Source: an uncultured Lachnospiraceae bacterium
GTDB lineage: Bacteria > Bacillota > Clostridia > Lachnospirales > Lachnospiraceae
Length of the DNA stretch: 64,000 nt
Reading direction: 5' to 3'
NCBI GenBank assembly: GCA_945919075.1
Contig: CAMEIX010000007.1
Span: 62,001-126,000 of the forward strand
The position numbers and the translations under genes are program-made. The notes beneath the pieces are model-generated. The model was not told where the DNA came from, did no database searches, and was given only the letters and a program-made list of their open reading frames with translations. Shown piece after piece: positions 17,515-32,412 of this stretch; positions within the stretch are counted from its first letter, which is position 1, and each line of letters opens with the position of its first letter.

Positions 17515-17616
17515 CAAAAATTATTTATTTTGCATAAAAATTATTACTAATTCATGAAAGAAATTGTCGAAAACAGACAAAATGGATTTGCGCGAAAAAG
17601 AATTGAATTAAACATC

Positions 17617-17645: not shown

Positions 17646-17659
17646 ATATAGGAATCATG

Positions 17660-17693: not shown

Positions 17694-17735
17694 TTTGAAA
17701 TATCTTAAAAACTAAGAAAAGGGAGAAAGAAAGAT

Positions 17736-20372
17736 ATGAACAAATGGGTTTATATGTTTAGTGAAGGCGACATGTCCATGAGAAACCTTCTCGGCGGTAA
17801 AGGTGCTAACCTCGCAGAAATGACCAGCATCGGCCTTCCTGTACCTCAGGGCTTCACAATCACAACAGAAGCTTGTACACAGTACTACGAAGATGGACGT
17901 AAGATTAACGACGAAATCATGGCTCAGGCTATGGAAGGCGTTAAGAAAATGGAAGAGATCAACGGTAAGAAATTCGGCGATCTTAAGAATCCTTTATTAG
18001 TATCAGTTCGTTCCGGTGCAAGAGCATCCATGCCCGGTATGATGGATACCATCTTAAACTTAGGTTTGAATGACGAAGTAGTTAGCGCAATGATCGCCGG
18101 CAACCCTGATCCGGCTTTCGAACGTTTCGTATATGACTCTTACAGACGTTTCATTCAGATGTTCTCTGACGTTGTAATGGAAGTTGGTAAGAAATATTTC
18201 GAGCAGTTAATCGACGCTATGAAGGAAAAGAAAGGCGTGCAGTATGACGTTGAATTAACCGCTGCTGACCTTAAGGAATTGGCAGAACAGTTCAAGGCTG
18301 AATACAAGAATCAGCTTGGTACTGATTTCCCTTCCGATCCTGTTGAACAGTTAAAACTTGCTATCGAAGCAGTATTCCGTTCCTGGGACAACCCTCGTGC
18401 AAACGTATATCGTCGTGACAATGATATCCCTTATTCCTGGGGTACCGCTGTTAACGTAATGCCCATGGTATTCGGTAACTTAAACAATGAATCCGGTACC
18501 GGTGTTGCATTTACCCGTGATCCTGCTACAGGTGAAAACAAACTGATGGGTGAATTCTTAATCAACGCTCAGGGTGAAGACGTAGTTGCAGGTGTTCGTA
18601 CACCTATGCCTATCGCTCAGATGGAAAAAGAATTCCCTGAAGCATATGCTGAATTCATCAAAGTATGTGAAACTCTTGAAAACCATTATCATGATATGCA
18701 GGATATGGAATTCACAGTTGAAAATAGAAAGCTTTACATGTTACAGTGCCGTAACGGTAAGAGAACCGCTCCTGCAGCATTAAAGATTGCTTGTGACCTG
18801 GTTGATGAAGGACACAAGACAGAAGCAGAAGCAGTTGCTATGATTGATCCTCGTAACTTAGATACCTTATTACATCCTCAGTTCGACGCAAAAGAACTTA
18901 AGGCTGCTACTCCTATCGGAAAAGGTCTTGGTGCATCTCCCGGAGCTGCTTGCGGTAAAGTTGTATTTACTGCAGATGACGCTGTTGAATGGGCTGCAAG
19001 AGGTGAAAAGGTAGTTCTTGTTCGTCTTGAAACATCTCCTGAAGATATCACCGGTATGAAAGCTGCTCAGGGTATCTTAACCGTTCGTGGTGGTATGACC
19101 AGCCATGCAGCAGTAGTTGCACGTGGTATGGGTACCTGCTGTGTATCCGGTTGTGGCGACATCAAGATGGATGAAGAAAACAAGAAATTTGAATTAGCTG
19201 GTCAGATCTTCACTGAAGGTTCTGAAATCTCTATCGATGGTTCTACCGGTAACATCTATGCTGGTTTAATTCCTACTGTAGATGCTACTATCGCCGGTGA
19301 ATTCGGTCGTGTTATGGCTTGGGCTGACAAGTTCAGAAAACTGAAAGTTCGTACAAACGCAGATACTCCTGCAGATGCTAAGAAAGCTCGTGAACTTGGT
19401 GCAGAAGGTATCGGTCTTTGCCGTACCGAGCATATGTTCTTCGAAGCAGACAGAATCGCAGCATTCCGTGAAATGATCTGTGCAGATACTGTTGAAGAAA
19501 GAGAAGCAGCTCTTGAAAAGATCCTTCCTTATCAGCAGGGAGACTTTAAGGCTCTTTATGAAGCTCTTGAAGGAAATCCTGTTACCATTCGTTTCCTTGA
19601 TCCTCCTCTTCATGAGTTTGTTCCTACTGAAGAAGAAGACATCGAAAAGCTTGCTAAGGCTCAGGGTAAATCCGTTGAAGATATCAAGAACATCATCGCT
19701 TCCTTACATGAATTCAACCCTATGATGGGTCACAGAGGATGCCGTCTTGCTGTTACTTATCCTGAAATTGCTAAGATGCAGACTAAGGCTGTTATCCGCG
19801 CAGCAATCGAAGTTAAGAAAGCACATCCTGATTGGAATGTAAAACCTGAAATCATGATTCCTCTGGTATGTGAAGTTAAAGAATTAAAATACGTTAAGAA
19901 GGTAGTTGTAGAAACCGCTGATGCTGAAATCGCTGCAGCAGGTGTAGAACTTGAGTACGAAGTTGGTACCATGATCGAAATCCCCAGAGCTGCTCTTACC
20001 GCTGATGAAATCGCAGCTGAAGCTGACTTCTTCTGCTTCGGTACTAACGACTTAACTCAGATGACCTTCGGCTTCTCCCGTGATGACGCTGGTAAGTTCT
20101 TAGACGCTTACTATGATACCAAGATCTTTGAAAACGATCCGTTTGCTAAACTGGATCAGACCGGTGTTGGCAAGTTAATGGAAATGTCCATCAAACTTGG
20201 CAAACCTGTTAATCCTAACCTGCACATCGGTATCTGTGGTGAGCACGGCGGAGATCCTTCTTCCGTTGAATTCTGCCACAAGATCGGTCTGGATTACGTT
20301 TCCTGTTCTCCTTTCCGTGTGCCTATCGCACGTCTTGCAGCAGCACAGGCAGCGATTGCTGATATGAAATAA
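17736..20372 (+). CDS. ppdK: Pyruvate, phosphate dikinase
   Basis: Interconverts pyruvate, ATP and phosphate with phosphoenolpyruvate, AMP and pyrophosphate; in anaerobes it works in glycolysis with PPi. 878 residues, full length. The N-terminal ATP-grasp domain includes LLGGKGANLAEM and SVRSGARASMPGMMDT; the swivelling phosphohistidine domain has LTVRGGMTSHAAVVARGMG near residue 450; the C-terminal TIM barrel ends with GICGEHGGDPSSVEF bearing the catalytic Cys. Codon use is strongly biased (GAA, GCT, CGT, AAC) unlike its neighbours, which points to high expression. The last codons recur at 32290-32323, see the island entry. Confidence 0.98.
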   Translation: MNKWVYMFSEGDMSMRNLLGGKGANLAEMTSIGLPVPQGFTITTEACTQYYEDGRKINDEIMAQAMEGVKKMEEINGKKFGDLKNPLLVSVRSGARASMPGMMDTILNLGLNDEVVSAMIAGNPDPAFERFVYDSYRRFIQMFSDVVMEVGKKYFEQLIDAMKEKKGVQYDVELTAADLKELAEQFKAEYKNQLGTDFPSDPVEQLKLAIEAVFRSWDNPRANVYRRDNDIPYSWGTAVNVMPMVFGNLNNESGTGVAFTRDPATGENKLMGEFLINAQGEDVVAGVRTPMPIAQMEKEFPEAYAEFIKVCETLENHYHDMQDMEFTVENRKLYMLQCRNGKRTAPAALKIACDLVDEGHKTEAEAVAMIDPRNLDTLLHPQFDAKELKAATPIGKGLGASPGAACGKVVFTADDAVEWAARGEKVVLVRLETSPEDITGMKAAQGILTVRGGMTSHAAVVARGMGTCCVSGCGDIKMDEENKKFELAGQIFTEGSEISIDGSTGNIYAGLIPTVDATIAGEFGRVMAWADKFRKLKVRTNADTPADAKKARELGAEGIGLCRTEHMFFEADRIAAFREMICADTVEEREAALEKILPYQQGDFKALYEALEGNPVTIRFLDPPLHEFVPTEEEDIEKLAKAQGKSVEDIKNIIASLHEFNPMMGHRGCRLAVTYPEIAKMQTKAVIRAAIEVKKAHPDWNVKPEIMIPLVCEVKELKYVKKVVVETADAEIAAAGVELEYEVGTMIEIPRAALTADEIAAEADFFCFGTNDLTQMTFGFSRDDAGKFLDAYYDTKIFENDPFAKLDQTGVGKLMEMSIKLGKPVNPNLHIGICGEHGGDPSSVEFCHKIGLDYVSCSPFRVPIARLAAAQAAIADMK

Positions 20373-20374
20373 GC
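20341..20374 (+). repeat. Left attachment-site candidate (end of intact ppdK)
   Basis: 34 bases covering the last ppdK codons (AQAAIADMK, stop) and the first bases after the stop. They match 32290-32323 at 31 of 34 positions; all three differences fall at third codon positions, one of them changing Met to Ile. Confidence 0.7.
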
Positions 20375-20406
20375 TAACTGTTAAGAAAACTCTATAGAAG
20401 TTCTAA

Positions 20407-20447
20407 TACCCACTAGAACAGAGACGGTTCTAGTGGGTATTTTTTTA
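20407..20447 (+). terminator. Intrinsic terminator of ppdK
   Basis: TACCCACTAGAAC pairs perfectly with GTTCTAGTGGGTA (13 pairs, 7-base loop) followed by a run of T. Confidence 0.95.
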
Positions 20448-20469
20448 TGCATTGGAAACTATCGCAAAG

Positions 20470-20498
20470 TAGACAGTATTATGATATAATGATATAAT
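20470..20498 (+). promoter_or_regulatory. Promoter-like sequence at the left end of the island
   Basis: TAGACA and TATAAT lie 17 bases apart (a second TATAAT overlaps at 20485). The first convincing gene starts 280 bases downstream. The stretch 20448-20779 otherwise holds only the small open frame at 20591-20734. Confidence 0.45.
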
Positions 20499-20590
20499 AA
20501 AAAGTATCGTAGACATAAGGCTATTGCAACGTATCAAGTAACACAAAAAAAATACAGAGAACATTCTTCTTTACAGACTGCGGACACAAA

Positions 20591-20734
20591 ATGTTTTCTA
20601 TAAACACTAATGATATGCAATATCACGGTTGTTTATATCCTGGTTGTTTGTGTAAAGCAATACAGACAACATTGTATATTAGAGGATCTGAAGAAGCGAA
20701 TGTGTATTGTAATAAAAAGGTCAAAGAGAAGTAA
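20591..20734 (+). CDS. Short cysteine-containing frame, probably a gene remnant
   Basis: A 47-codon frame with a CLYPGCLC cluster and a basic C-terminus. The same frame is open for a few codons upstream (ending CGHK before the ATG), giving a zinc-ribbon-like look. No ribosome site precedes the ATG. I consider it more likely the 3' remnant of a lost gene than a live gene, and I do not recognise the family. Confidence 0.25.
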   Translation: MFSINTNDMQYHGCLYPGCLCKAIQTTLYIRGSEEANVYCNKKVKEK

Positions 20735-20779
20735 AACAGAAACAAAAGATTGATTTTATTGTAGAAATGGGGGAGACAT

Positions 20780-21655
20780 ATGAAAAATGAACTTAATATG
20801 GCAATATCAATGATGCCAAAAGTAGGTGAAGTGGAACTTTTTAGAGAAATGGCAAGACAATTTAATTTTAATAAATTTGCCAAAGCTACCTACGTGAAAG
20901 AAGTACATAAACAGTATATTGAGTACCCGTCTTCTTTTCTAGGTAGTATGAAAAGAATTGAATTAGGAGATTTGCTATTTATAACATATGACAAATCGAC
21001 AAAAGAACTCCGAATATGCATTTTACAAGCAAAATATAGAAGAGGTTCATATAGAAAATTCTTGAATTGTAAAGCAGATATTTTTCAATGGGAGCTACTA
21101 TATTATAAGCCAGATGTATACGATAAGAGTACAATGAATATTCCGAAGCATATTCTTAATTTTAGACATGATTATAAAAGCATTACAGCTTATGGAGTTT
21201 TTTATCATGACAAAAAATTAAATATGATAGATTTTTTATATACGTTACCCGAATTATTTGCTCCAAAATATCTATTGCCATCACCATCAAATACTTTTGT
21301 TTATAATTGTCCAAATTTGAGTGTTTGTAAGTCTTCTTGTTGTGGATGTAGTACAACAATGTGTCCAACAAAACAAGGAGGAATGCCCAAAGAGACTTTA
21401 TATACATGTTCTATTGATATTTTTGAGCATGAAATCTTATCATGTAGAATTGGAGCACCAATAAATGATGATGAAATTAAAAAATATATATTAGAATTAT
21501 TAGTTATTATGAAAAGAACATCGGAAAATCCAGAAGTGATAGATGAGATATTGCGTGATTATGAATATATATATGATTCTGATGATTATTTTTCAGATGA
21601 CGAGTATCCTTCTGCAATTATAGTTATTACAGAAAGTGAATATATGAAGCATTAA
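20780..21655 (+). CDS. Unrecognised island protein with nuclease-like motif and cysteine cluster
   Basis: 291 residues, no signal peptide or membrane segment. AATGGGGGAG precedes the ATG. Residues about 62-85 read GDLLFI...CILQAKY, which resembles the D-(E/Q)xK core of PD-(D/E)xK nucleases, and residues about 175-195 hold a cysteine cluster (C-x5-C-x3-CC-x-C-x4-C) that could bind zinc. The C-terminus is acidic (YDSDDYFSDDEYP). Low G+C and codon use match the island rather than the chromosome. It could be a defence or element-maintenance protein; the nuclease idea is only a motif impression. Confidence 0.6.
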   Translation: MKNELNMAISMMPKVGEVELFREMARQFNFNKFAKATYVKEVHKQYIEYPSSFLGSMKRIELGDLLFITYDKSTKELRICILQAKYRRGSYRKFLNCKADIFQWELLYYKPDVYDKSTMNIPKHILNFRHDYKSITAYGVFYHDKKLNMIDFLYTLPELFAPKYLLPSPSNTFVYNCPNLSVCKSSCCGCSTTMCPTKQGGMPKETLYTCSIDIFEHEILSCRIGAPINDDEIKKYILELLVIMKRTSENPEVIDEILRDYEYIYDSDDYFSDDEYPSAIIVITESEYMKH

Positions 21656-21699
21656 AAATAGGAATAGAATCTGGTTTTCATAAGAGGAAGTAGGAAAAT

Positions 21700-22084
21700 A
21701 TGAATTTATTTGATCTAATTGTAAAGAATGATGAATGGATATATTTAACGCTCATTATTTAATCCTTAATTGTTCCTATAGTTCATACTATATGAATAAA
21801 GAGTAAAATCAGAAAATTGTCTGATAATGCATTAGAAGTTACACCTAAAGTATTTTTTATATTAAGAAATTCAAGTAATGGTGGACGTGGGAGGGAACAT
21901 ATATCAGCCAAATATGATTTTCATGGAGTATATTTATTATATAATCATACTAAAAACATATATTATGTAGTGCAAGGCAAAATAGTATTTCAGCGAGTAA
22001 TAATCATATTACTGGTCATGGTAATGGGATGTATACGCAGATTATAAATAAGGAGATGAGTTTACCATTAAAATGATTGTGTAA
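21700..22084 (+). pseudogene. Broken GIY-YIG nuclease gene
   Basis: From the ATG at 21700 one frame reads MNLFDLIVKNDEWIYLTLII, stop, SLIVPIVHTI, stop (TGA where TGG would restore Trp), IKSKIRKL and on to KYDFHGVYLLYNHTKNIYYVVQGKIVFQRV: a membrane segment followed by a GIY-YIG core. A one-base shift then gives NNHITGHGNG, and another gives GDVYADYK, stop, GDEFTIKMI. Two in-frame stops upstream, one stop at 22049 and two frameshifts make it inactive. The YIG glycine is also replaced (YYVV). Intact relatives would be membrane-anchored GIY-YIG proteins of about 140-170 residues. Confidence 0.75.
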
Positions 22085-22184
22085 AAGAATAGCGGTTATA
22101 TTGGAAAATAAATTTGACAAAATGGTTTGAATTAAAAGGGAAGGAAAATTATGTTTGTAAATTTTTTTGAGGGGGGATAAACAT

Positions 22185-22910
22185 ATGTTCAGGATAGCAA
22201 TATGCGATGATGAGAAACCATTTAGAGATAGTGTTAGAAAATATGTTGAGAAATATTTTTGTGAAAAAGAGATCTCTTACGAAGTGGATACATTTGCTTC
22301 TGGCAAGGAATTTCTTGATTTAGGAATTGAACTAGTACAATACGACATAATTTTTCTTGATATAAATATGGACGAAATAGATGGAATTGTAACAGCACAA
22401 AAAATTAGAGAATATAGTTCAGAAGTGTATATTGTGTTTGTAACAGCTTATATAAATTATTCGTTGGAAGGGTATAAAGTCGATGCAGCAAGATATTTAT
22501 TAAAGAATAATACGAATTTTGATGATTCTATATATGAATGTATGGATACTATTCTCCATAAGATGAACTATGTTGTTATGAAAAAGACTTTTCAATTCAA
22601 TGAATGTGAAAAGGATGTTCCGGTAGAAAGAATACTATACATAGAGAGTAAATTGCATAAACTGGAATTTCATATCATGGAAGAAAAGTTAAAAATTTAT
22701 ACTTTGTATGGGACATTAAATGAATTGGAAACGGAAATGACGGACTTTTCTTTTCTAAGGATTCATCAAAGCTTTTTAGTAAATCTAAAGCATATAAAAA
22801 AAGTTATAGGGTATAAAGTAATATTGAGTAATAATCAGGAGCTAATTATTCCTAAAGCAAGATACAAAGATGTAAAGAACGCATTTATTGCATACAAAGG
22901 AGAACTGTGA
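22185..22910 (+). CDS. agrA: LytTR response regulator (AgrA-like)
   Basis: 241-residue cytoplasmic regulator. The receiver domain has the acidic pair in AICDDEKPF, phosphoacceptor Asp59 in IFLDINMDEIDG and a Lys near residue 108. The C-terminal LytTR DNA-binding domain (about 135-240) includes ILYIESKLHKLEF and FLRIHQSFLVNLKHI. The start at 22185 is chosen over the TTG at 22167 because GAGGGGGG (22169-22176) lies 8 bases upstream. The kinase gene begins 3 bases later, and agrB and agrD follow, so it is the output of a peptide quorum-sensing circuit. It would bind pairs of direct repeats; see 24279-24305. Confidence 0.9.
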   Translation: MFRIAICDDEKPFRDSVRKYVEKYFCEKEISYEVDTFASGKEFLDLGIELVQYDIIFLDINMDEIDGIVTAQKIREYSSEVYIVFVTAYINYSLEGYKVDAARYLLKNNTNFDDSIYECMDTILHKMNYVVMKKTFQFNECEKDVPVERILYIESKLHKLEFHIMEEKLKIYTLYGTLNELETEMTDFSFLRIHQSFLVNLKHIKKVIGYKVILSNNQELIIPKARYKDVKNAFIAYKGEL

Positions 22911-22913
22911 TAT

Positions 22914-24224
22914 ATGTTTTTATATTTTTTTAGTTTGGCAATAATTGCATTTGAGGTTATATGTTGCAAGATATTTTTTGAAAGCTTTTGCCATTCGTCT
23001 TTAGGACAAAGAAAGTTACAAAAAGTTCTGCTTTTATTAGTGTTGATTTTCGTATATTATGTGTGTGGTCTGACTTTGTCTGGTTGGATAGTTGTGAAAC
23101 AAATAATTGCTATATTGGTCACAGCAGTTATTATGCACGTTTACTTTAGAATAAGCATAAAAAAGTCATCGGTGCTGGCAATGTTGTATCAAGGTTTATT
23201 GCTGTTAGTTGATTATTTGGCTTATGTCGGAAATTGTGCTATCATTTCAAAAGAAGGAGTAGTACAAAACGAATATGCATTAGAAGGTAATCTGGTTGTT
23301 GTTTTTAGTAAAGTTATACTGTTTCTTTGTATTTTACTTGTTAAGAAACAATTTGGGCATAAATCAACAGAGATGCTGGCAGATGCGGAATGGATCAAAT
23401 TTTTGTTTTTTCCGGTATTTACAATTGTTACGATTGTTGCAATGCTTATGACATTTCAATATACAGAAAATAAGGCACAGGCTTATGTTCTTTATTCCAT
23501 TGCACTTGGGATGGTTGTTATGAATGCATTTGTATATTATCTAATTAACGATATTGTTATTAGAGAAGCTGAAATACATGAGAAAGCAATATTAGAATTA
23601 CAGGTTAAGAATCAAATTGAAATGTATCGTTCTATATCAGAGAATTATGAAATCCAGAAGGACAAGTCGCATGAGTTTAAGAACCAGATATTGTGTATTG
23701 AGTCATTACTGAAAGATCATGAATATGACGAAGCAAGTAGGTATGTAAATAATATTAGTAAGACATTTATGGGAGAGAGAAATATAATCAATACTAATCA
23801 TGTGATAATCAATGCTATTCTTAATACAAAGTACCAGGAAGCAATTAGTAACCATATTGTCTTTGTGTTTAAAGTAAATGACTTATCGAAAATTGGAATA
23901 GAAGATGAGGATCTAGTTGTCGTTTTGGCTAATTTATTAAATAATGCCATTGAAGCGTGTGAAAAATGTAAAGAAAAGAAAGAAATTAAGTTTAAATTTA
24001 TGATAGAAGATGAGTTGATAATTCTTTCTGTAAAGAATACATATAATCAACCGCTTGTATATGATAATGATGAAATCAAGACAAGTAAGACAGTAATGCC
24101 AGATGAACATGGCGTAGGGATCAAAAATGTAATACGGATTGTAAAAAAATATAGAGGAGAATATGTCGTTCAAAATAATGAAAAGGAATTTTACTTTTCA
24201 ATTGTTATTCCATTAAAAAAATAA
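22914..24224 (+). CDS. agrC: Sensor histidine kinase (AgrC-like, GHKL type)
   Basis: 436-residue membrane receptor kinase. The first 220 residues hold about six hydrophobic segments, as in AgrC-type peptide sensors. The dimerisation region has the HPK10 phosphoacceptor His253 in KSHEFKNQILCIESLL. The GHKL ATPase domain has the N-box VVVLANLLNNAIEACEK (near 335-350) and the G-box HGVGIKNV near 400. Placed 3 bases after the regulator and followed by a strong terminator. Presumed ligand: the processed peptide of the AgrD encoded downstream. Confidence 0.9.
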   Translation: MFLYFFSLAIIAFEVICCKIFFESFCHSSLGQRKLQKVLLLLVLIFVYYVCGLTLSGWIVVKQIIAILVTAVIMHVYFRISIKKSSVLAMLYQGLLLLVDYLAYVGNCAIISKEGVVQNEYALEGNLVVVFSKVILFLCILLVKKQFGHKSTEMLADAEWIKFLFFPVFTIVTIVAMLMTFQYTENKAQAYVLYSIALGMVVMNAFVYYLINDIVIREAEIHEKAILELQVKNQIEMYRSISENYEIQKDKSHEFKNQILCIESLLKDHEYDEASRYVNNISKTFMGERNIINTNHVIINAILNTKYQEAISNHIVFVFKVNDLSKIGIEDEDLVVVLANLLNNAIEACEKCKEKKEIKFKFMIEDELIILSVKNTYNQPLVYDNDEIKTSKTVMPDEHGVGIKNVIRIVKKYRGEYVVQNNEKEFYFSIVIPLKK

Positions 24225-24242
24225 GTATAGTGTGTATTTTAA

Positions 24243-24282
24243 GGACAAAGGGTATTCAAGAAAATGCCCTTTGTTCATTTTC
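24243..24282 (+). terminator. Intrinsic terminator between agrC and agrB
   Basis: GGACAAAGGGTATT pairs with AATGCCCTTTGTTC (14 pairs including two G-U) around CAAGAA and is followed by ATTTTCT. It separates the agrAC and agrBD transcripts. Confidence 0.85.
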
Positions 24283-24305
24283 TGCTAAAAATGTCCGCTT
24301 TCTGC
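24279..24305 (+). promoter_or_regulatory. Candidate AgrA (LytTR) binding site: direct repeat TTTCTGC
   Basis: TTTCTGC occurs at 24279-24285 and 24299-24305, start to start 20 bases, about two helical turns, as in LytTR-regulator direct-repeat sites. The pair ends 8 bases upstream of the -35 of the agrBD promoter, the position expected for an activator. Confidence 0.5.
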
Positions 24306-24313
24306 AAGGCTAA

Positions 24314-24341
24314 TTGAATATATCTATATCTTTGATATGAT
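24314..24341 (+). promoter_or_regulatory. Promoter of agrBD
   Basis: TTGAAT and TATGAT are 16 bases apart, 24 bases before the agrB start. The suboptimal spacing and the upstream direct repeat fit an activator-dependent promoter. Confidence 0.55.
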
Positions 24342-24364
24342 TTTAGGAAAGGAGGCACAAAGAT

Positions 24365-24958
24365 ATGGTTGAAAGGATAGCTAATGCAATAGTAGACCAA
24401 ATGGAAGAAAAAAGAATTTTACAGTCAGAGATGAAGGAACACTATTTATATGCTTTAATCACGACAATAGAAAAGTGGCTTACCATAATTTCAATATTGT
24501 GTATTGGAGTGGTTTTTAAGCAGATTATTCCGATGATGTTATTTCTGGCTTTTTTTCTTTCTTTGAGAAAAAGGACAGGTGGTTATCATGCAAACTCGTT
24601 TTTACAATGCTATTTGGGAACTTTGATTATTAGCATAGGTGTTGTTCATGTATGTCCGATATTAGTAAATTATATGTATGCTGTATATGTATTACTTGTT
24701 TGTTCCATAGTAGTAATAGCTTTAATTGGAACGATCAATCATCCTAATTTGGCAATGGATTGTATTGAGTTACAAGAATCAAAAAAAGCGGCAAGATATT
24801 TACTTGGACTAGAATGTATGATATTGGCAGCTGCTATATCGATAGAGATATGTGAACTTTTTATCTGCTATATGTCCGTTGCAATCGTATTGTGTGCATT
24901 TCTTTTGTGTTTAGCAAAAATTTTGAAACAGGAGGTATGTTTGAATGAAAAAGAGTAA
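24365..24958 (+). CDS. agrB: AgrB-like peptide-processing protease
   Basis: 197-residue integral membrane cysteine protease that cleaves AgrD and forms the thiolactone ring. The catalytic pair appears as His75 and Cys82 in RTGGYHANSFLQCYLG, with the same seven-residue spacing as in AgrB family members. Five or six hydrophobic segments span the protein. AAAGGAGG lies just upstream of the ATG. The 3' end overlaps agrD by 14 bases. Length and topology match the family. Confidence 0.93.
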   Translation: MVERIANAIVDQMEEKRILQSEMKEHYLYALITTIEKWLTIISILCIGVVFKQIIPMMLFLAFFLSLRKRTGGYHANSFLQCYLGTLIISIGVVHVCPILVNYMYAVYVLLVCSIVVIALIGTINHPNLAMDCIELQESKKAARYLLGLECMILAAAISIEICELFICYMSVAIVLCAFLLCLAKILKQEVCLNEKE

Positions 24959-25082
24959 TTTAAAAACAAGTGTTTTGAGAGTGGTTCAGAAGGTAATTGG
25001 TTTGGAGGTTGAGAGAAACAATTCCGGAAATTCTTTTTGTATTGGTATTTTACACCAGCCTAAAAGACCTAAGAGAAAATAA
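24945..25082 (+). CDS. agrD: AgrD-like cyclic peptide precursor
   Basis: 45 residues, below ordinary gene-calling size. It starts inside the end of agrB with GGAGG (24931-24935) 9 bases upstream. An amphipathic basic N-terminal half (about residues 1-22) leads to NSGNSF, then Cys32 and the C-terminus CIGILHQPKRPKRK. The ring would form between Cys32 and the residue four later (CIGIL), with HQPKRPKRK as the removed tail; QPK directly after the ring is common in clostridial AgrD peptides. N-terminal cleavage site, and so the exocyclic tail length, is not predictable here. Confidence 0.85.
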   Translation: MKKSNLKTSVLRVVQKVIGLEVERNNSGNSFCIGILHQPKRPKRK

Positions 25083-25094
25083 TCATTATGAAAG

Positions 25095-25343
25095 GTGGGA
25101 TTTATATTAAAATTAAAAATTTATAGCAAGTTCTCTTGCGTAATCATGGTATTATCGATTTCGAATAATACAGGCAAAATTATTAATGTCTATGCTGAGG
25201 ATACAGTAGTGATGAAAGAGTTTAATGAAAATGTTTCATTGCAGGAAGACGTGATAAATTTATCTTCTACACATTATATTACTTCAAATGTTAATTATAA
25301 TGAAGGTAGAAAATCATTATGCTATTTAGAGTATCTAATATAG
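25095..25343 (+). pseudogene. Short remnant of a secreted-protein gene downstream of agrD
   Basis: The frame reads like an N-terminal signal sequence (LKLKIYSKFSCVIMVLSISN...VYAED) followed by about 45 residues and a stop. No normal start is well placed: AAAGGTGGG (25091-25099) is followed at 25104 by ATA, where an ATG would be expected, and the only upstream start codon is the GTG inside the ribosome site. I read it as a gene that lost its start and probably its 3' part. It could still be translated weakly from the GTG. Confidence 0.4.
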
Positions 25344-25446
25344 AATCATCAGATGAGTACATAATTTTAAACTGATAATTCAGAAAATAAAATATTTGAT
25401 ATTATAACTTGAACTTAACAGATAATAAGAAAAGGAGAATTTCAGT

Positions 25447-25848
25447 ATGAAAAAGATTACCAAAGGAAATTTAAGAAAAATAATTTTAACATTCACACTT
25501 GCGTTTACTTTGACTTTCGGTATGAGCATATCGGCGTATGCTGCAACTTCTGCAACAGGAGGAATTAATGATTATATCACCAGAGGTTCATCTTCTATAA
25601 GTGCAACAGGTGCAAGTGCTTCAACATCATATCAAAGCACTGGATCTGTCACCGTATCATCAACCTATAGCTATGTGAATACTGATACTCTTGAGACAGG
25701 TACATCTACTAAGAATAATGGACATTATAGTTCATGTTCGGTAAGTTTTTCGGCTCCGAGCAATTGTCGTAGCGTAAAGGTAACTAGTTCCCACAGTGTT
25801 ACTGCATATGATCAGACATGGACTACGAACACATCAGCCACATATTGA
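25447..25848 (+). CDS. Small secreted Ser/Thr-rich protein, possible agr output
   Basis: 133 residues. A cleavable signal peptide (basic MKKITKGNLRK, hydrophobic core, AYA-AT cleavage near residue 32) is followed by about 100 residues rich in Ser, Thr and Tyr with two Cys (near 97 and 107) that could form a disulphide. No catalytic motif or wall-anchor signal. AAAGGAG lies upstream of the ATG. Position directly after agrBD and before an ABC operon suggests an agr-controlled exported effector, for instance a bacteriocin-like or matrix protein; the superficial likeness to lactococcin-972-type secreted proteins is too weak to assign. Unknown family. Confidence 0.75.
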   Translation: MKKITKGNLRKIILTFTLAFTLTFGMSISAYAATSATGGINDYITRGSSSISATGASASTSYQSTGSVTVSSTYSYVNTDTLETGTSTKNNGHYSSCSVSFSAPSNCRSVKVTSSHSVTAYDQTWTTNTSATY

Positions 25849-25872
25849 TCCTTTTTATTAGGTGAAATGTCG

Positions 25873-27108
25873 ATGAAGAAGAAATCTTTGTTCATAATCA
25901 TTATTTTTATATTTTGCTTTTGTTCCGTGATTGTTTTGCTTATGTTAAAGCAAAACAATCACGGATTTAATGACGAAGAGTACGTTTATGACCCTACAGA
26001 CCCCCAATGCAACTATTCTGAGCATACCGTAATTTATCTGGATGGTTCGGGGATACTGCACCTTATCGAAACAACTTCCGGTAAGGACATGGTCTATTGT
26101 GACAGACCTAACTGCACGCATGAAGGCTTTTCACATAATAATGAGAATCCATCATGTCCTGCAGCTTTTTTGGGACTGAGCAAGAGTGGACCGGTGCTTT
26201 ATAACGGGCATCTTTATTTTATTGGTAATATGTCCAATGAAGATATATTCCGGACGCAGTATCTCTATGAAATGGATCCAAACGGTGAGAATCGTAAAAA
26301 GGTTGCCACTTTAGAAGGGGTTCAGAATCTCAGATATGTTCTATACAGGGATAAGTATGTTATAGGTGCTTATTATAACAGAATCGAGATAAATGATGAG
26401 GGGCAGATTATCAACGACAATAAGCCGGAAGCCGGTATCTTTGTCATCGACCTTGATAATTATAAAGTGTACATGGGAGATAAGATAACGGGAGAGCAGG
26501 CAAATATTACAGGAATTTATTATGAAGAAGGGGCTGTATATTATTCGAGTATTCATTTTGGTGATAATGTTACAGAACTTATGGTTGGTGATACAGCAGA
26601 GAACGACTTTGAGTCCTTTGTTTATGAAAATATGCTATATGAAATCTACCGATATGATATTGCAAATGAGAATACTGCGCTCGTAAAGACTTTCGACCAT
26701 ATAAGTGACCTTCAGCTGATAGATGGTGATGCTTACTATGTATCCAAAGAAGGGTATTTTGTATTTGATAAAATAAGCGGAGAGACCAAAGAATTAGCAA
26801 TAGAAATAGATGCTGGAACATTAAGGGGCGGCGGATTTAAAAAGCATGAAGATGCTTTATATTATGCTCTCTTCGATAGTGCCGGTAATGAAGTCATATA
26901 TTATCGTATGGAGAATGGTGAAACCGATGAACTGATGAGAGTACCGCCTGAAGACTCATTTGGAATAGTAAACATATGCGGTCAGTCGGTTTATATCAAT
27001 TATACCGATGATAAAGGACGTTTTTGTTTGGGAGTATTGCGCATGGATGATTTCAATCAGGGGAGATTTATACCGAAAGAATTGAGGTGCTATGATGAAG
27101 AAGAATAG
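25873..27108 (+). CDS. Membrane-anchored beta-propeller-like protein (DUF5050/TolB-like)
   Basis: 411 residues. An N-terminal signal anchor (about 6-27) is followed by an extracytoplasmic region of repeated beta-blade sequences such as YNGHLYFIG...YLYEMDPNGENRKKV, typical of DUF5050/TolB-like propellers. Three or four Cys near residues 75-100 (CDRPNCTHEG...CPAAF) resemble a metal or disulphide knot. The ATG at 25873 is chosen over 25867 because of AGGTGA spacing. The stop overlaps the next gene. It heads the ABC operon and contains the inverted repeat at 25924-25965. Role unknown; probably a sensor or accessory on the outer face. Confidence 0.65.
   Translation: MKKKSLFIIIIFIFCFCSVIVLLMLKQNNHGFNDEEYVYDPTDPQCNYSEHTVIYLDGSGILHLIETTSGKDMVYCDRPNCTHEGFSHNNENPSCPAAFLGLSKSGPVLYNGHLYFIGNMSNEDIFRTQYLYEMDPNGENRKKVATLEGVQNLRYVLYRDKYVIGAYYNRIEINDEGQIINDNKPEAGIFVIDLDNYKVYMGDKITGEQANITGIYYEEGAVYYSSIHFGDNVTELMVGDTAENDFESFVYENMLYEIYRYDIANENTALVKTFDHISDLQLIDGDAYYVSKEGYFVFDKISGETKELAIEIDAGTLRGGGFKKHEDALYYALFDSAGNEVIYYRMENGETDELMRVPPEDSFGIVNICGQSVYINYTDDKGRFCLGVLRMDDFNQGRFIPKELRCYDEEE
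25924..25965 (+). repeat. Perfect 18-bp inverted repeat inside the start of a gene
   Basis: TCCGTGATTGTTTTGCTT and its exact reverse complement AAGCAAAACAATCACGGA flank the 6-base loop ATGTTA. The repeat lies in the codons for the membrane anchor, 76 bases after the stop of the small secreted protein gene. In RNA it makes an 18-pair hairpin. Confidence 0.95.
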
Positions 27109-28588
27109 GATTATTTTGACAGCGATTGTACTGTTTGCCTTGATTGTGATTTCTGCAATGGCAATTTTGAATAAAAAAACGGATTCACCCGGCAAAACGG
27201 AAACGGATAATAAAAACATAACATCGGATTTGACCGGTGAAGAAAAATCGGACGCAAAAATCATAACATTTGCTGTTCCGGATATTTGTAAGATAGATGA
27301 TGATAATCTTCAGCAATTTAATGATGAGCTCAATAGGGACGGTCATGATTATATACTCAAAATAAAATATCTGGAATATGATGAATATGCTGCGGTGCTT
27401 GAGGACGAGTTAAAAACCGGAGAAACAGATATTGCTTTCTTAGGGTTGGGCGATGCAGGCGGAAGCAATAATGTATATACCCTTATGAATTCCGGACTTG
27501 TTCATAATCTTGATGAGATATTGTCGCAGAAGTCGGGTGCTGCGCTTTATAATGCTTTCCCACAAAATCTTTGGGAGTCAGTTAAATGCAACGGGCATAT
27601 TTATTCGATACCATCAGTACTTGCTAATGATCAGGGCATATATGCTGCATTTAACAGAGATTATATCGCAGATGAGGATATAGAAAAGTGGGACGGAAGT
27701 ATAGAGGGGATTTATGAAATTATTAAAAACGCTGAGTGGAATAACAGTGATGCTCCCCGTTTTCAATATCTTATAAATGGTTATTCGTTTGAGGATATGA
27801 TAGGGTGTGAAATAAGATATGGACTAATTTTGGACTATGACTCACTATCGATTGAAAATCCCTTGGAGTCGGAAAAGCTTATAGGTTATCTGAATGTACT
27901 TGATCGAATGAAGAAAGACGGATATATGAATAACTCTATATCATATCTTGACAATTCCGGCTTAAACAGTATGGGAGTGTTGAAAAATGTAGAATCAGGT
28001 AATTACCTGGTGGCATTATCATCCGGTTCCGTAGATAAGGTGTTTCTGAAAGATAATATAACTGTTAAGACAGTAAAGCCATATCTTTCATCAAGAATAA
28101 ACGGTTCCATAGGTATATCAAAAAATACAGATGATATCGATAGCGTGGTGGATTTTCTGGGACTTTTGTATGGTGACGGAAAGTATGCCAATATTCTTCT
28201 ATATGGGCAGGCAGATTCGGATTATAAGGTTATAGACGGTGTTGCCTGCAATATGGATGGCACTGATCTGGATGATGAATATATTACCAAGCTCTGTTTG
28301 AATTTGTTTGTGAATGCACATCCTGTCAGAGGTGAGAACTATATGAACAATCGTAAGAATGAGTTTTTTTCTTTTTATGACAGTATAAATTTATCACCGT
28401 TTATCGGCTTTGAACCTGATACAGCCGGTTCAAACAAAATTTTAAATGACCTGAATGAATTTATGAATAGTCTTAATGATAAGAGTGTGGATGAAGCTAT
28501 AGACAGCACCAGGGATAAACTTATAGCCGATGGCATTGATGAATATCTTAGCAGTATAAAAAGTCAGTGGGAGGAGTATCGACAATGA
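27095..28588 (+). CDS. Membrane-anchored solute-binding-like protein of the ABC operon
   Basis: 497 residues. An N-terminal signal anchor without a lipobox Cys (about residues 6-25) precedes an acidic linker and a domain resembling family 1 extracellular binding proteins (two-lobe fold; DIAFLGLGDAGGSN near 112, LVHNLDEIL near 135, GHIYSIPSVLANDQGIYAAFN near 168). The second ATG (27095) has better spacing from GAGG than 27092. It overlaps the propeller gene upstream and the ATPase downstream (ATGA). A binding-protein fold next to an export-type ATPase and permease suggests a sensing, capture or immunity role rather than import. Confidence 0.68.
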   Translation: MKKNRIILTAIVLFALIVISAMAILNKKTDSPGKTETDNKNITSDLTGEEKSDAKIITFAVPDICKIDDDNLQQFNDELNRDGHDYILKIKYLEYDEYAAVLEDELKTGETDIAFLGLGDAGGSNNVYTLMNSGLVHNLDEILSQKSGAALYNAFPQNLWESVKCNGHIYSIPSVLANDQGIYAAFNRDYIADEDIEKWDGSIEGIYEIIKNAEWNNSDAPRFQYLINGYSFEDMIGCEIRYGLILDYDSLSIENPLESEKLIGYLNVLDRMKKDGYMNNSISYLDNSGLNSMGVLKNVESGNYLVALSSGSVDKVFLKDNITVKTVKPYLSSRINGSIGISKNTDDIDSVVDFLGLLYGDGKYANILLYGQADSDYKVIDGVACNMDGTDLDDEYITKLCLNLFVNAHPVRGENYMNNRKNEFFSFYDSINLSPFIGFEPDTAGSNKILNDLNEFMNSLNDKSVDEAIDSTRDKLIADGIDEYLSSIKSQWEEYRQ

Positions 28589-29448
28589 TACTTAAACTGG
28601 AAGGTCTTACCAAAAATTATAAAGATAAAGTTGCATTGGATGGTATAACGTTTTCATTTACTCCCGGAATATATGGCCTTTTGGGTCCGAACGGTGCCGG
28701 TAAGTCAACCATGATGAATCTTATTACTGATAATCTGACTCCTACCAAAGGACGTGTACTGCTTGATGAAAAAAGCATAGATGAACTGGGAAGTGAATAC
28801 AGAAAACTTTTAGGATATATGCCGCAGCAACAAAATATATATCCGGAGCTTAGTCTCAGGCGATTTTTGTATTTTATGGCCTCTCTGAAAGGCTTAAAAA
28901 AGAGTGAGGCCCAAAAAGATATAAACCATTATGTAAGGATGGTAAAACTGGAAGATGTACTCGGAAAGAAGCTTGGAACTTTTTCGGGCGGGATGAAACA
29001 AAGGGCTTTAATAGCACAGGCGCTTATAGGCAATCCCGGTATACTGATCTTAGATGAACCTACTGCAGGACTTGACCCGAAGGAGAGAATCAGAATCCGT
29101 AATCTGATATCAGAGGTCGCGCGTGATAAGATTGTTATCATTGCGACTCATGTGGTTACGGATATAGAATTTATAGCAAAAGAAATAATCATGCTGAATA
29201 GCGGGAACATAATACGGAGTGGTTCTCCTTCCGAATTGCTTAGCGAGTTAGACGGAAAAGTTTGGAATATCTTTTTGTCTGATGAAGAGATAGATGAAAT
29301 AAACGTTAAATACAAAGTAAGTAACATTTCAAGGGATGCTGAAGGTGTTATCGCCAGGATCATTGCTGATTCCTATGATGGCAGGTGGAAAAAAGAGGCA
29401 GTACGACCGAATCTTGAAGATTTGTATTTGTATCTTAATGGAGATTGA
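28585..29448 (+). CDS. ABC transporter ATP-binding protein (export type)
   Basis: 287-residue ATPase of the NatA/BcrA/CcmA-like group. Walker A GPNGAGKSTMMN (near 35), Q-loop MPQQQNIYPELSLR, signature FSGGMKQRALIAQALIG, Walker B ILILDEPTAGLDPKER and H-loop VIIATHVV are intact. The C-terminal 60 residues form the extra domain seen in ABC-2 exporters. The start overlaps the preceding stop (ATGA 28585-28588) and GGGAGGAG lies 8 bases upstream. Works with the permease encoded next. Confidence 0.92.
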   Translation: MILKLEGLTKNYKDKVALDGITFSFTPGIYGLLGPNGAGKSTMMNLITDNLTPTKGRVLLDEKSIDELGSEYRKLLGYMPQQQNIYPELSLRRFLYFMASLKGLKKSEAQKDINHYVRMVKLEDVLGKKLGTFSGGMKQRALIAQALIGNPGILILDEPTAGLDPKERIRIRNLISEVARDKIVIIATHVVTDIEFIAKEIIMLNSGNIIRSGSPSELLSELDGKVWNIFLSDEEIDEINVKYKVSNISRDAEGVIARIIADSYDGRWKKEAVRPNLEDLYLYLNGD

Positions 29449-29450
29449 AA

Positions 29451-31556
29451 ATGGATATATTAAAAAATGAAATCTGTAAATTGCTGACTAAAAGAACAGT
29501 GTCGATTCTTTTGCTTCTGATTGTCATTAATCCATTGCTTCAACTGTATATCATCAACACTCCCAATGAGGATGGATATTCGCTTAAGGATTATAGCGGG
29601 TTATATCATAAAATTAGTTCCTACAGTCAGGATGATCTTCTGGCTGAAATTGAAGAAGAAAAAATAAAGGCTGATACATTCGGTGATGTAAATCTATATG
29701 CCAGGGTTTACAAGGAAGTAAAGGCATGCATCACATATGATGAATATCTTAATTCTATTGATGAAAAAGCCGAAGAGATTGCGATTATGAACAGGTTTGT
29801 TGATGATGGCGGATATGCAGTAAGAAATGCTGAAAAAACAAGCAAAGTGTACCGGAAACTTAAAGGAACAGAACTTAAAGTGGAAGACCCTATGGGTATA
29901 CTTAATATTACTGACAATGAACTTACGGATTACATAGCGATAATAATGATATTTGTTATTGCTATTAATCTCGTTCTTTACGAAAAAAACGAGAATCAAT
30001 TTAGTTTTTTAAGAACAACATCAAATGGTAGAAAAAAGTTGATGGCGTCCAAAGTCCTTGCCATGTTTTTATTTGTTTTATTTATCACTATGTCTCTATA
30101 CGGAATTAATGCAGTAATAAGCAGGTGCTTCTATAATTCCATAGATTTTGAAAGCCCGCTTCAAAGTGTGTATTTATACCGAAACAGTCCGTTTGGCTTA
30201 AATATAGGCGAATTTCTGGTCAGTTATTTTCTTGTCAAAATCTTAAGCTGTGTTCTCCTTGGAATTCTGTTTATGTTAATATGTGCTGTATTTGACCATA
30301 TCATTTTTGTATTTGTTGCTTCTGCTTTAACAGTTCTTGTTGAAATAATTTGTTATACCAAAATTTCCGGAACGCATTTTCTTGCATTTCTAAAATACAT
30401 AAATATCATGTCTGGTGTCAAAACCGGCGGCATGTTTTCTGATTATGTAAATTTGAATTTGATTGGATATCCGGTCAACACATGCCTTTTGTATGGGATA
30501 TTGTGGTTGATATTAACAGTTGTTTTTGTTTTTACTGTCATAAATTATCTTGAATCATCCTACGAAAAAAGGAGTATTTCTTTACAGAGATTTGATTTTC
30601 TTAAAGGCTTTGAATGTCATACTTCTCTTTTTTGGCATGAATGTTACAAGATGCTTGTTCCCGGTCGAGTTTTTTTGGTACTGATTTTTTCATGTCTGTT
30701 TGTGATATGGTGGAATCCTGCAGAGAAAATTCAGTTTGATACAGTTGATGAAGTTTATTATAAAGAGTACATGGATAAATTTTATGGGCCTTTAAATTCT
30801 AAAAACTATGAGATGTTAAATGAAGAAAGGGCAAAATATGATCAGTTGTCTGCAAACATATCCGCTGATATCATGCAGGGAAAAAGTGAAAATTATATCA
30901 GCATAAAATACAAAGATGAGTTAAGCAGACAAGCTGCATTCGACATGGTTACAGAACATATTGAATATCTGGAATCCCAAAAGGGAGGATGGTTATTCTA
31001 TGAAAAAGGATATGATATTCTTACAGATAATACTCATTTTAAGAATCGGGATATTTCACAAGCATTCGTATATCTTATTATACTTATAGCCATAACATGT
31101 GGTATTTACGGTGTTGATTTTGGTAATTCGGAAATGAGGATTTTAAGAATAACTTATCATGGCAGAAGAAATCTTAAAAATATCAAAGGGGTATTGGGAG
31201 TTTTATGTACTCTTATCTCGTTTGTATTGGTATATATTGTACGTCTGTTAAATGTGCTTAGGGCATATGGTACCTGCGGATTTAATGCCCCTGCTGCAAG
31301 CATGGAGCATTTGTCACGAGTCCCTCAGAATATATCTGTATTACAATATATTCTGATAATAATGATCATGAGATTTATCGGCGGCCTGATTGTTACTAAG
31401 GCTGTTTTTGTGTCATTCAAGTATCTAAAGAACAGTATTTCTGTGATTATTTCATGTATTGTGATATTCGTAATACCACTGGCTCTTGCAGCTTTAAATG
31501 TTCCAAATGCACAGTATATCTTATTTAATCCGTTACTGCTCGGAAATGTATTTTGA
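29451..31556 (+). CDS. Large ABC-2-like permease with internally duplicated layout
   Basis: 701-residue membrane protein. Each half starts with a short amphipathic segment and a membrane helix (KNEICKLLTKRTVSILLLLIVINPLL; WHECYKMLVPGRVFLVLIFSCLFVIWW), then a charged helical extracytoplasmic loop of about 100 residues, then four or five further membrane helices. So one chain probably carries both halves of the translocation path, unlike usual 230-400-residue ABC-2 permeases. The ATG at 29451 has GGAGA 6 bases upstream. Last gene of the operon; the end of transcription is not obvious. Substrate unknown; export of a peptide or lantibiotic-type self-protection are options. Confidence 0.78.
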   Translation: MDILKNEICKLLTKRTVSILLLLIVINPLLQLYIINTPNEDGYSLKDYSGLYHKISSYSQDDLLAEIEEEKIKADTFGDVNLYARVYKEVKACITYDEYLNSIDEKAEEIAIMNRFVDDGGYAVRNAEKTSKVYRKLKGTELKVEDPMGILNITDNELTDYIAIIMIFVIAINLVLYEKNENQFSFLRTTSNGRKKLMASKVLAMFLFVLFITMSLYGINAVISRCFYNSIDFESPLQSVYLYRNSPFGLNIGEFLVSYFLVKILSCVLLGILFMLICAVFDHIIFVFVASALTVLVEIICYTKISGTHFLAFLKYINIMSGVKTGGMFSDYVNLNLIGYPVNTCLLYGILWLILTVVFVFTVINYLESSYEKRSISLQRFDFLKGFECHTSLFWHECYKMLVPGRVFLVLIFSCLFVIWWNPAEKIQFDTVDEVYYKEYMDKFYGPLNSKNYEMLNEERAKYDQLSANISADIMQGKSENYISIKYKDELSRQAAFDMVTEHIEYLESQKGGWLFYEKGYDILTDNTHFKNRDISQAFVYLIILIAITCGIYGVDFGNSEMRILRITYHGRRNLKNIKGVLGVLCTLISFVLVYIVRLLNVLRAYGTCGFNAPAASMEHLSRVPQNISVLQYILIIMIMRFIGGLIVTKAVFVSFKYLKNSISVIISCIVIFVIPLALAALNVPNAQYILFNPLLLGNVF

Positions 31557-31802
31557 TTGTTGATAGAAAGCGTGACTTCATGATACTTGAGGGCTCCTTC
31601 CTTGCCTGAAATATGTAATATTCATGTGTATACAAGAAAATAGTCAGGTAAGGGAGAAATTGAAAAATAGAATTGAGGCACAATTGATATGGCTTCTATT
31701 AAGTAGATAGTTCAGACTGTAGACAAAGTGGGACTGTAAATAAAAATCGCTACAGAGCACAATTGACTTTGAAAAATTGAGGAAGAGAGCAAGTTTAATA
31801 TA

Positions 31803-32058
31803 AATGGTGGTCTTGATTTTAATAGTGTATGGAATTGGAGAGCTAATTTGAAAGGAATTTGTTCTATGTCAGAAGAATGGCAACCTCAAGATGATTTTTT
31901 ATTTTTCTATCAAGTGAATAAAAATAAAACTTTTTTAGGATAAACAACCTTAGATAGTCAAGCGGGAATTTGTGTTGTAGAATTTGAAGGTAAAAAGTGG
32001 ACTATGTAAGTTCCGTTTAATGGTACATGTGTATCAATAGCATATCCTCAGAATTGCA
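31803..32058 (+). pseudogene. Unrecognised decayed reading frame
   Basis: In the 960-base stretch without an intact gene after the permease, one frame reads GGLDFNSVWNWRANLKG...FLG, stop, TTLDSQAGICVVEFEGKKWTM, stop, VPFNGTCVSIAYPQNCKHE. The residue composition is protein-like across two stop codons, which suggests gene decay. No family is recognised. The sequence 31557-31802 shows nothing I can interpret. Confidence 0.4.
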
Positions 32059-32061
32059 AAC

Positions 32062-32312
32062 ATGAGTGCGCTTGTCGAAAGCCTGACAGAGTTTATTAAG
32101 ATGCAAGCCTTTGACGCAAGAGCCAAGATACCCGAGTCAATGATCGACGCATTTGTCGATAGAGTTGTTTTTGACAAAGGATTTTTTTTGGTATCTTAAT
32201 CCTAAGTTTGGTAATGAGACATTTAGAGTCGATACTATCGATTGGAAAAAGAATATGTTGAAGACTCAAAAAAAGTTACTTGCTGACACCAGCACAGGCA
32301 GCTATTGCTGAC
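32062..32312 (+). pseudogene. C-terminal fragment of a site-specific (serine) recombinase, frameshifted
   Basis: The frame LVESLTEFIKMQAFDARAKIPESMIDAFVDRVVFDKGFF continues after a one-base shift as WYLNPKFGNETFRVDTIDWKKN, the type of C-terminal tail found in large serine recombinases of clostridial elements. The shift falls in a run of eight T (32182-32189), where one T too many closes the frame. The N-terminal catalytic and zinc domains are missing. The shifted frame ends with a TGA at 32310-32312, inside the copy of the ppdK 3' end. Family assignment rests on pattern memory, so moderate. Confidence 0.55.
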
Positions 32313-32323
32313 ATCAAATAAGC
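32290..32323 (+). repeat. Right attachment-site candidate (orphan ppdK 3' end)
   Basis: Encodes AQAAIADIK and a stop in the ppdK reading frame with 31 of 34 bases matching 20341-20374, yet no ppdK body precedes it. A terminator follows at 32356. It is probably the displaced original 3' end of ppdK, left when the island integrated. Confidence 0.7.
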
Positions 32324-32355
32324 GAAAATAATTCGTTTATTATAAGATAAGAATT

Positions 32356-32387
32356 AAGCCCCCGTAGGAAACTATGGGGGCTTTTTG
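32356..32387 (+). terminator. Intrinsic terminator at the right island border
   Basis: AAGCCCCC pairs with GGGGGCTT (extended by GTA/TAT) and is followed by TTTTTG. Probably the original ppdK terminator. Confidence 0.85.
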
Positions 32388-32412
32388 AAATATAAGTATT
32401 GTTCATAAAAAC

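Follow-up and report, generated by a model that had tools for sequence, protein, structure and literature searches.

The locus raises the question of why the last codons of ppdK occur twice in the window (the whole stretch of 64,000 nucleotides analysed here) and what brought in the DNA between the two copies. A direct-repeat search of positions 20000–32700 gave, as the first listed of 55 repeat families, a 40-nt repeat (20338–20377 and 32287–32326) whose copies are 88% identical and lie 11,949 bases apart. Between 20341–20374 and 32290–32323, 31 of 34 bases are identical, and each of the three mismatches affects the third base of a ppdK codon, with an ATG/ATC pair changing Met to Ile. The ppdK stop lies within the left copy, and neither tblastn of the window ORFs nor the ORF list showed any ppdK body 5' of the right copy. 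Both points, the duplication at a distance of 11.9 kb and the right copy without a gene body, had been made in the first-pass annotation and were confirmed in full. The features at the two ends are as follows.

17736–20372, + strand: ppdK, pyruvate phosphate dikinase, 878 aa (ORF list); host gene, its 3' end being the putative attachment site
20341–20374, + strand: left copy of the ppdK tail, attL side, with the core CAGGCAGC at 20346
20406–20447, + strand: terminator-like hairpin 3' of the left copy (fold of 20373–20460, −26.1 kcal/mol)
32074–32305, + strand: remnant of a large serine recombinase (LSR), approximately residues 480–562, in two frames (32074–32190 and 32180–32305; tblastn)
32290–32323, + strand: right copy of the ppdK tail, attR side, with the core CAGGCAGC at 32295; this copy contains the end of the LSR frame
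32356–32386, + strand: terminator-like hairpin 3' of the right copy (fold of 32322–32400, −25.1 kcal/mol)

The two copies showed their top similarities to different genomes, the left one to G129 and G071 (score 31) and the right one to G017 (score 35). A search of the own genome with the ppdK-tail pattern, allowing up to three mismatches (2,999,133 bases in 55 contigs, 98.71% complete), returned the two window copies only, and the chance expectation for a 31/34 pair in 12 kb of random sequence is about 4e-8.

The broken recombinase whose stop had been said to overlap the right copy was found as described, with its class 1 frame ending at the TGA at 32309–32311, inside the copy. Eight of nine LSR queries from one family matched this stretch in two pieces (tblastn, E values from 1.3e-9 to 4.9e-23) and, judging from these alignments, what remains is the C-terminal ~80 residues of an LSR from a single Lachnospirales family, interrupted by a frameshift. 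No intact LSR of this family was found in the own genome. The window shows a ppdK tail at both ends of the element and a family LSR crossing the core at the right end, the latter as a remnant only; no LSR C-terminus lies directly behind ppdK at the left end, where the LSR frame stops at once and tblastn gave no LSR match.

The AT-richness attributed to the island was evident, as GC content in 1-kb windows was 27.3–38.6% over 21001–32000 versus 39.7–47.6% over positions 1–20000; to the right of the island, at 33–37 kb, GC was also low (36–41%). The genes between the copies are the following.

20780–21655, + strand: 291-aa protein, no Pfam match at 0.001 and no NCBIfam match at 0.01
22182–22910, + strand: agrA-like response regulator with LytTR domain (ORF listed from 22167; Pfam LytTR 1.4e-17, Response_reg 2.9e-16)
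22914–24224, + strand: agrC-like histidine kinase, GHKL (Pfam HATPase_c_5 8.6e-27)
24365–24958, + strand: agrB (Pfam AgrB 3e-29)
24945–25082, + strand: agrD, predicted cyclic lactone autoinducer precursor (NCBIfam TIGR04223 1.8e-6, over the cut-off)
25447–25848, + strand: 133-aa small secreted-looking protein, signal-like N-terminus by eye, no Pfam or NCBIfam match
25867–27108, + strand: 413-aa protein, no Pfam or NCBIfam match
27092–28588, + strand: 498-aa protein, no Pfam or NCBIfam match
28582–29448, + strand: ABC transporter ATPase (ORF listed from 28567; Pfam ABC_tran 6.3e-31)
29445–31556, + strand: 703-aa large permease, ABC-2 type (Pfam ABC2_membrane_2 0.0009, below the cut-off, weak)

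The agr and export genes are the cargo of the window island. The quorum-sensing circuit with an export operon proposed at first reading was supported, with AgrA, AgrC, AgrB, and AgrD types matched in Pfam or NCBIfam and a clear ABC ATPase beside the weakly matched permease. As in known agr quorum sensing, AgrB, AgrD, a LytTR regulator, and a GHKL kinase, all assigned by their domains, appear in one cluster; here, however, the cluster lies on an att-flanked island beside an unusual export operon, known from its genes alone. No Pfam family of conjugation genes was found in the nine island proteins scanned. Outside the own genome, the best match of the permease was 26% identical (G095), and a match at 1e-20 occurred in 47 of 138 genomes, own included, while the agr-type matches (L087, L151, L091, L112, L192, L051, and L198) were loose. 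Since permease matches were distant and agr matches loose, the agr/export cargo was rejected as a trait of the family.

A feature of most family loci is found at the 3' end of the recombinase gene, and the appearance in intact relatives of an attachment site inside that gene was absent from the first-pass annotation. The family table holds 55 loci, from 59 after dropping L205–L208 (weak or partial matches). In 47 of the 55, the 3' end of the LSR gene spans the core, at LSR codon 546–558 (one 5'-truncated locus apart), or in 46 of 54 without a double, since L150, from the viral collection, and L197 are apparently one 14,418-base contig. Over the core of these 47 loci, the LSR frame is shifted relative to the ppdK frame by +1 in 36 and by +2 in 11, and coincides with it in none (0); the ppdK frame itself reads QAAI or QAAL in all 47 and reaches a stop after 6–10 residues. 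The other eight have an LSR 3' end without the core, which counts against an attP inside the gene; one of them is L203, where ppdK and an LSR share one contig. A profile of the ppdK-side peptide matched the C-termini of two related core-less LSRs (E 3.2e-6 and 5.9e-5). Three family members scanned carry Pfam Resolvase and Recombinase domains and are not tyrosine recombinases, and structure prediction suggests a disordered linker around codon 546–558 of ~600, followed by a terminal strand-helix-strand module. Thirteen LSRs are uninterrupted and may represent junctions of neighbouring elements rather than free attP. Coverage of the LSR reached 80% nowhere in the plasmid and phage collections, where weaker matches came from 3 and 41 records, respectively.

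The reciprocal arrangement was observed at ppdK in relatives. All 17 genomes chosen have the ppdK core followed directly by an LSR C-terminus (one cut by the contig end); many of these C-termini are closely related to one another, and each shares the frame class of the LSR body (class 2 in four, class 1 in thirteen). An LSR lies on the same contig and strand as ppdK in ten of these genomes, 35–105 kb downstream, although in arrays the LSR found is not necessarily the partner of the C-terminus at ppdK. When one C-terminal peptide was used as query in the genus search, 7 of 138 genomes matched, with ppdK upstream in all seven loci. Among 50 ppdK ends collected by motif search, eight were LSR-like (L012, L014, L015, cut by the contig end, L018, L024, L115, L116, and L119), and four other open frames after ppdK (L063, L069, L079, and L029) were judged unrelated by eye. 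Among these eight, G013, G149, and G015 had a partner LSR body carrying the core, and G012 one with a changed core; against the pairing, no partner body was present among the matches listed for G004, G019, G061, and G099, which are draft assemblies.

Elements with a full recombinase, for which the first-pass annotation proposed a search, do exist at ppdK; the agr/export cargo is not a trait they share. In Butyrivibrio sp. MC2013, the core pattern was matched twice in 66.6 kb, with conjugation genes between the matches and an LSR at the right end; this 65 kb conjugative element with its full recombinase sits at ppdK and encodes RepA_N, a coupling protein, TrbL/VirB6-like, PrgI and NlpC/P60 proteins, a topoisomerase, and a relaxase. 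ParA, ParB, RepA_N, and TraG genes adjoin ppdK in G013, and a PF07508 search revealed an LSR at a displaced tail in G149. Tyrosine integrases were considered as drivers too and rejected: PF00589 had many matches in 39 genomes, and among those listed none was seen by eye within 10 kb of a displaced tail. Other cargo at ppdK in the cases examined included a BREX cluster.

The expected empty site, ppdK followed by the same right flank, was not found, because none of three right-flank genes was matched downstream of ppdK (39 regions, 1.5–20.8 kb); ppdK in same-genus regions was 84–97% identical in protein alignment. Nor was the same 12 kb seen elsewhere without a ppdK fragment, as followed through one cargo protein in 138 genomes.

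Taken together, we interpret the 12 kb, with a probability of roughly 0.83, as what would be a decayed integrative unit at the ppdK-tail site of Lachnospirales LSR elements that have their attP inside the LSR gene. The integration footprint proposed for the 3' end of ppdK is upheld by a right copy that would be attR, by a remnant whose family ends at the site, and by the full-recombinase elements at ppdK. In family elements, the LSR gene would lie at the right end, with attP at about codon 546–558 of ~600. Recombination, which we infer to be catalysed by this LSR, would have its crossover in the shared CAGGCNGC core, joining ppdK to the LSR 3' end, which, in another frame, would provide the final codons and stop of ppdK, and placing the former ppdK tail behind the LSR body. 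With attP inside the LSR gene, ppdK and the recombinase would swap their 3' ends on integration; the integrated LSR would lose ~50 C-terminal residues and gain a few read in a shifted frame, so that free and integrated enzyme would differ in their C-terminus, and arrays would yield chimeric recombinases. Of the LSR, the window keeps only the C-terminal ~80 residues, broken by a frameshift, before the displaced tail, and at the left end a ppdK-like tail with terminator stands in place of the LSR C-terminus. For the family as a whole, it is highly probable from the gene ends compared that attP lies in its own coding sequence, that three reading frames run through the core (ppdK tail, class 1, and class 2), and that a C-terminal module is exchanged per integration for a tail encoded by ppdK. 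The additional idea that this exchange might act as a switch, of direction or of integration state, is a rather doubtful guess.

It is conceivable, if somewhat less than probable, that the window island was instead a recombinase-less passenger (CIME-like) between two ppdK-type tails, mobilised in trans by a related LSR or remaining from an array that had lost a part. A ppdK-like tail with terminator is present at both window ends, and G141 and G153 have comparable tail-flanked units, with three and two tails, respectively, that of G153 showing no recombinase among the ORFs listed; however, the remnant of an LSR of the right family lies exactly at the right end, as in autonomous members. We consider it very improbable that the LSR C-termini behind ppdK are deletion scars between the ppdK tail and a similar LSR stretch, with attP elsewhere. 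Such an origin would fit the restriction of ppdK/LSR similarity to the short core, but not the agreement of frame class in 17 of 17 cases, with the ppdK tail restored each time, the ten genomes with downstream LSR bodies on the same strand, or the conjugative element between two cores in MC2013. Finally, that the right copy represents the tail of an ancient ppdK paralogue, of which none was seen, or arose as a chance repeat is scarcely credible even if both copies resemble genuine ppdK ends with a terminator behind, as no ppdK body precedes the right copy, the preceding bases are LSR coding in the class 1 frame, and such tails number only two in the genome, at the chance expectation given above.

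An integrative unit using the end of a conserved gene has known counterparts. SCC cassettes insert at the 3' end of the conserved gene rlmH, and their Ccr enzymes are likewise serine recombinases, CcrB being the best NCBIfam match of one family LSR (E 4.6e-40, well short of the cut-off); their target gene, however, is not ppdK, and we know of no Ccr gene carrying its own attachment site. Firmicutes ICEs with a RepA_N/ParAB/VirD4-type backbone share backbone genes with MC2013 and G013 but differ in the integration module, here of the LSR/ppdK kind, and these backbone families are absent from the window island proteins scanned with Pfam. The ppdK 3' end is a published site for the Bacteroidota CTns PvCTn and relatives (PMC11005914), which, by their description there, insert with a restored stop, as in the window, but in another phylum. 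The main text of that paper does not give the integrase type, the words tyrosine, serine, and recombinase being absent from it, and its passages on these elements do not mention an attP within the gene of the integrase. Archaeal SSV-type "suicidal" integrases, termed exclusive to archaea in the source consulted, are tyrosine recombinases split into Int(N) and a catalytic Int(C) (PMC8371274). Their recombination site lies within the integrase gene, as it appears to in the LSR family from a comparison of ends, though not in the decayed window; in contrast to them, the LSR family is a bacterial serine recombinase that would keep its catalytic N-terminal part and exchange only the last ~50 residues. 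An attP inside a serine integrase gene was not found in the literature covered, namely titles and abstract openings outside most subscription journals and preprints.

If true, this would be a bacterial and widespread case in which the effect of C-terminal exchange on recombination direction can be tested, and the family would be a source of many LSR/att pairs with inferred sites. The ppdK 3' end would be a mobile-element target in two gut phyla, with cargo including agr signalling, the BREX cluster, and others. The window host is itself a gut bacterium with a quorum-sensing island at the end of a metabolic gene.

The survey of the large serine recombinase (LSR) family gathered 58 loci from a scan of named genomes and one from a scan of viral contigs, and 55 of these 59 were tabulated (L205–L208 were left out; L150 and L197 are apparently one contig). 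In 47 of the 55, a short sequence common to the 3' end of ppdK, the core, spans the 3' end of the LSR gene; it falls at LSR codon 546–558 in all but L200, which lacks its 5' part. In all 47 loci, translation of the core in the ppdK frame gives QAAI or QAAL and reaches a stop after 6–10 residues. None of the LSRs uses this frame: 36 are read at +1 relative to ppdK (class 1) and 11 at +2 (class 2), among the latter the frameshifted gene L199. In thirteen LSRs of the tabulated set, the reading frame stays open for 40 codons or more beyond the core. The core was absent in eight loci (L162, L170, L184, L188, L193, L195, L202, and L203); in L203, ppdK and the coreless LSR lie on one contig about 0.8 kb apart, an arrangement that the model set out below does not explain. 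A 392-genome sample of the order, overlapping the first one, gave family-LSR matches at 1e-120 in 16 genomes and 12 of 173 genera, with the core near the LSR end in 13 of 17 matches, including L257, where it lies downstream of a stop, in frame 0.

The ppdK gene was located for 17 of the 58 named loci, picked mainly for long contigs or isolates. All 17 genomes showed an LSR C-terminus immediately behind the ppdK core (cut by the contig end in G174), always of the same frame class as the LSR body of that genome: class 2 in G162, G163, G172, and G177, and class 1 in the other thirteen. Because many class 1 C-termini are near-identical to one another, the 17 genomes do not count as independent cases; where elements form arrays, the C-terminus at ppdK may belong to a different LSR from the one found. 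In ten genomes (G162, G163, G164, G166, G167, G168, G172, G173, G177, and G178), the LSR and ppdK share a contig and a strand at a distance of 35–105 kb, as judged from coordinates and contig sizes, the latter differing slightly for G164. A profile of 13 ppdK-side peptides matched long family LSRs at their C-termini; it also matched the C-termini of L123 and L124, two related LSRs that lack the core (E 3.2e-6 and 5.9e-5), which independently supports the view that an LSR end is what follows ppdK.

An element with a full recombinase, one part of what the first-pass annotation had proposed to look for, is seen in Butyrivibrio sp. MC2013, where 66.6 kb from ppdK onward contain two core-pattern matches, at 710 and 65,814, with conjugation genes between them and the LSR at the right end. 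The ten proteins scanned between the cores included RepA_N, a T4SS coupling protein, TrbL/VirB6-like, PrgI, and P-loop TraG, as well as NlpC/P60, topoisomerase, relaxase, BrxC domains of BREX, and methylase. By eye, a second LSR-like gene was also seen in this conjugative element (L246–L249), between two pieces of a coupling-protein gene.

In the model that we propose, the LSR at the right end of the element would recombine its own internal attP with ppdK, whose end would remain working because LSR sequence read in another frame would provide the final codons and the stop codon. The old ppdK tail would in turn encode the last few residues of the integrated LSR. Where insertions are neighbours, an LSR body would acquire its C-terminus from the next element, sometimes in the other frame class, the case cited being Eubacterium plexicaudatum (L167). 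A structure model of the uninterrupted LSR of L181 (alignment of 26) had a mean pLDDT of 71.9 and a pTM of 0.34, and thus only local features were used: the core (codon 546) is predicted inside low-confidence residues 539–557, between a beta hairpin and the last strand-helix-strand unit. The ppdK 3' end is a published attB of PvCTn-like elements of Bacteroidota (PMC11005914), and integrases whose genes are split on integration are described in archaea and termed exclusive to them (PMC8371274). No report of an attP within a serine integrase gene was found in the open literature searched. Together, these points support regarding the arrangement as a variant on known themes, and priority is not claimed.

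Among relatives, an LSR-like C-terminus in a non-ppdK frame followed 8 of the 50 distinct ppdK ends compared. One such peptide used as query had matches in 7 of 138 same-genus genomes, directly preceded by ppdK in all seven loci. The best eight matches to the G149 LSR came from G149, G013 (two), G012, G061, G062, G160, and G015, and seven 3' ends were inspected, leaving out the second G013 match. The LSRs of G149, G013, G160, and G015 terminate in the core and that of G012 in an altered core (QHRRA); in G061 and G062 the C-terminus is complete and the core is absent. For the draft genomes G004, G019, G061, and G099, which carry the C-terminus behind ppdK, no core-bearing LSR body appeared among the matches listed. 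Genes for DUF6075, ParA, ParB, RepA_N, and TraG lie next to ppdK in G013. At L016/L041 (G021:C24), the ppdK stop has another partial ppdK tail no more than about 60 bases away, and that tail is followed by a scrap resembling an LSR C-terminus.

In the window, the two ppdK-tail copies are spaced 11,949 bases apart and share 31 of 34 bases, the three mismatches falling at third codon positions and one turning Met into Ile. This duplication, already claimed in the first-pass annotation, was borne out: a pattern search of the whole own genome found only these two places, against a chance expectation of about 4e-8 per 12 kb. A tblastn search of 20372–32400 with nine family LSRs likewise substantiated the broken recombinase described at the right copy. 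Eight queries matched two pieces in different frames (32074–32190 and 32180–32305; E 1.3e-9 to 4.9e-23), corresponding to about residues 480–562; L121 gave a single short piece (E 0.043), L201 an additional chance-like match elsewhere (E 0.37), and no further LSR pieces were found by this search.

The right end agrees with the model, as the remnant, read in the class 1 frame, continues into the displaced tail, which fits a decayed element. However, the left end disagrees: the LSR frame stops immediately, and a ppdK-like tail and terminator are found there. The island may instead be a passenger unit, since tail-flanked units of this left-end kind occur in G141 and G153. L087 (G141:C12) has three tandem ppdK tails, and its first unit carries, besides an LSR fragment, a LytTR regulator (38% identical to that of the window) and a GHKL kinase (32%). 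In L089 (G153:C11, reverse complement 5416–11149), two tails enclose a unit of 5.7 kb that encodes a large ATPase-like protein and, by eye, a toxin-antitoxin-like pair. In G092 and G073, a second tail lies on a separate contig. The own genome gave four LSR-type matches by Pfam and no family-LSR match at E 1e-40 or 1e-120, so the island probably cannot move on its own.

An empty ppdK site, predicted for relatives, was not found among the regions searched. The DNA between the tails is AT-rich as claimed, but GC is also low over the next 4 kb on the right (about 36–41% over 32324–37000); as GC remains low up to 37 kb, the ATPase and helicase-like genes there may be foreign too. The quorum-sensing and export cargo was recovered as AgrA-, AgrC-, AgrB-, and AgrD-like proteins, an ABC ATPase, and a large permease, and several island proteins had no family match. 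Smaller features in and beside the island were as follows:

25924–25965, perfect 18 bp inverted repeat with a 6-base loop, within the start of a 413-aa ORF
31795–32060, coding remnant of a different protein with many stops, after the permease gene and ahead of the LSR remnant
32413–32512, repeated/palindromic stretches with ACTCGGAA-AAACCGA-like words, before and across the start of the AAA ATPase gene
32466–33689, AAA ATPase gene (ATPase_2/DUF234), right of the island

The repeats at 32413–32512 are those that had been termed iterons.
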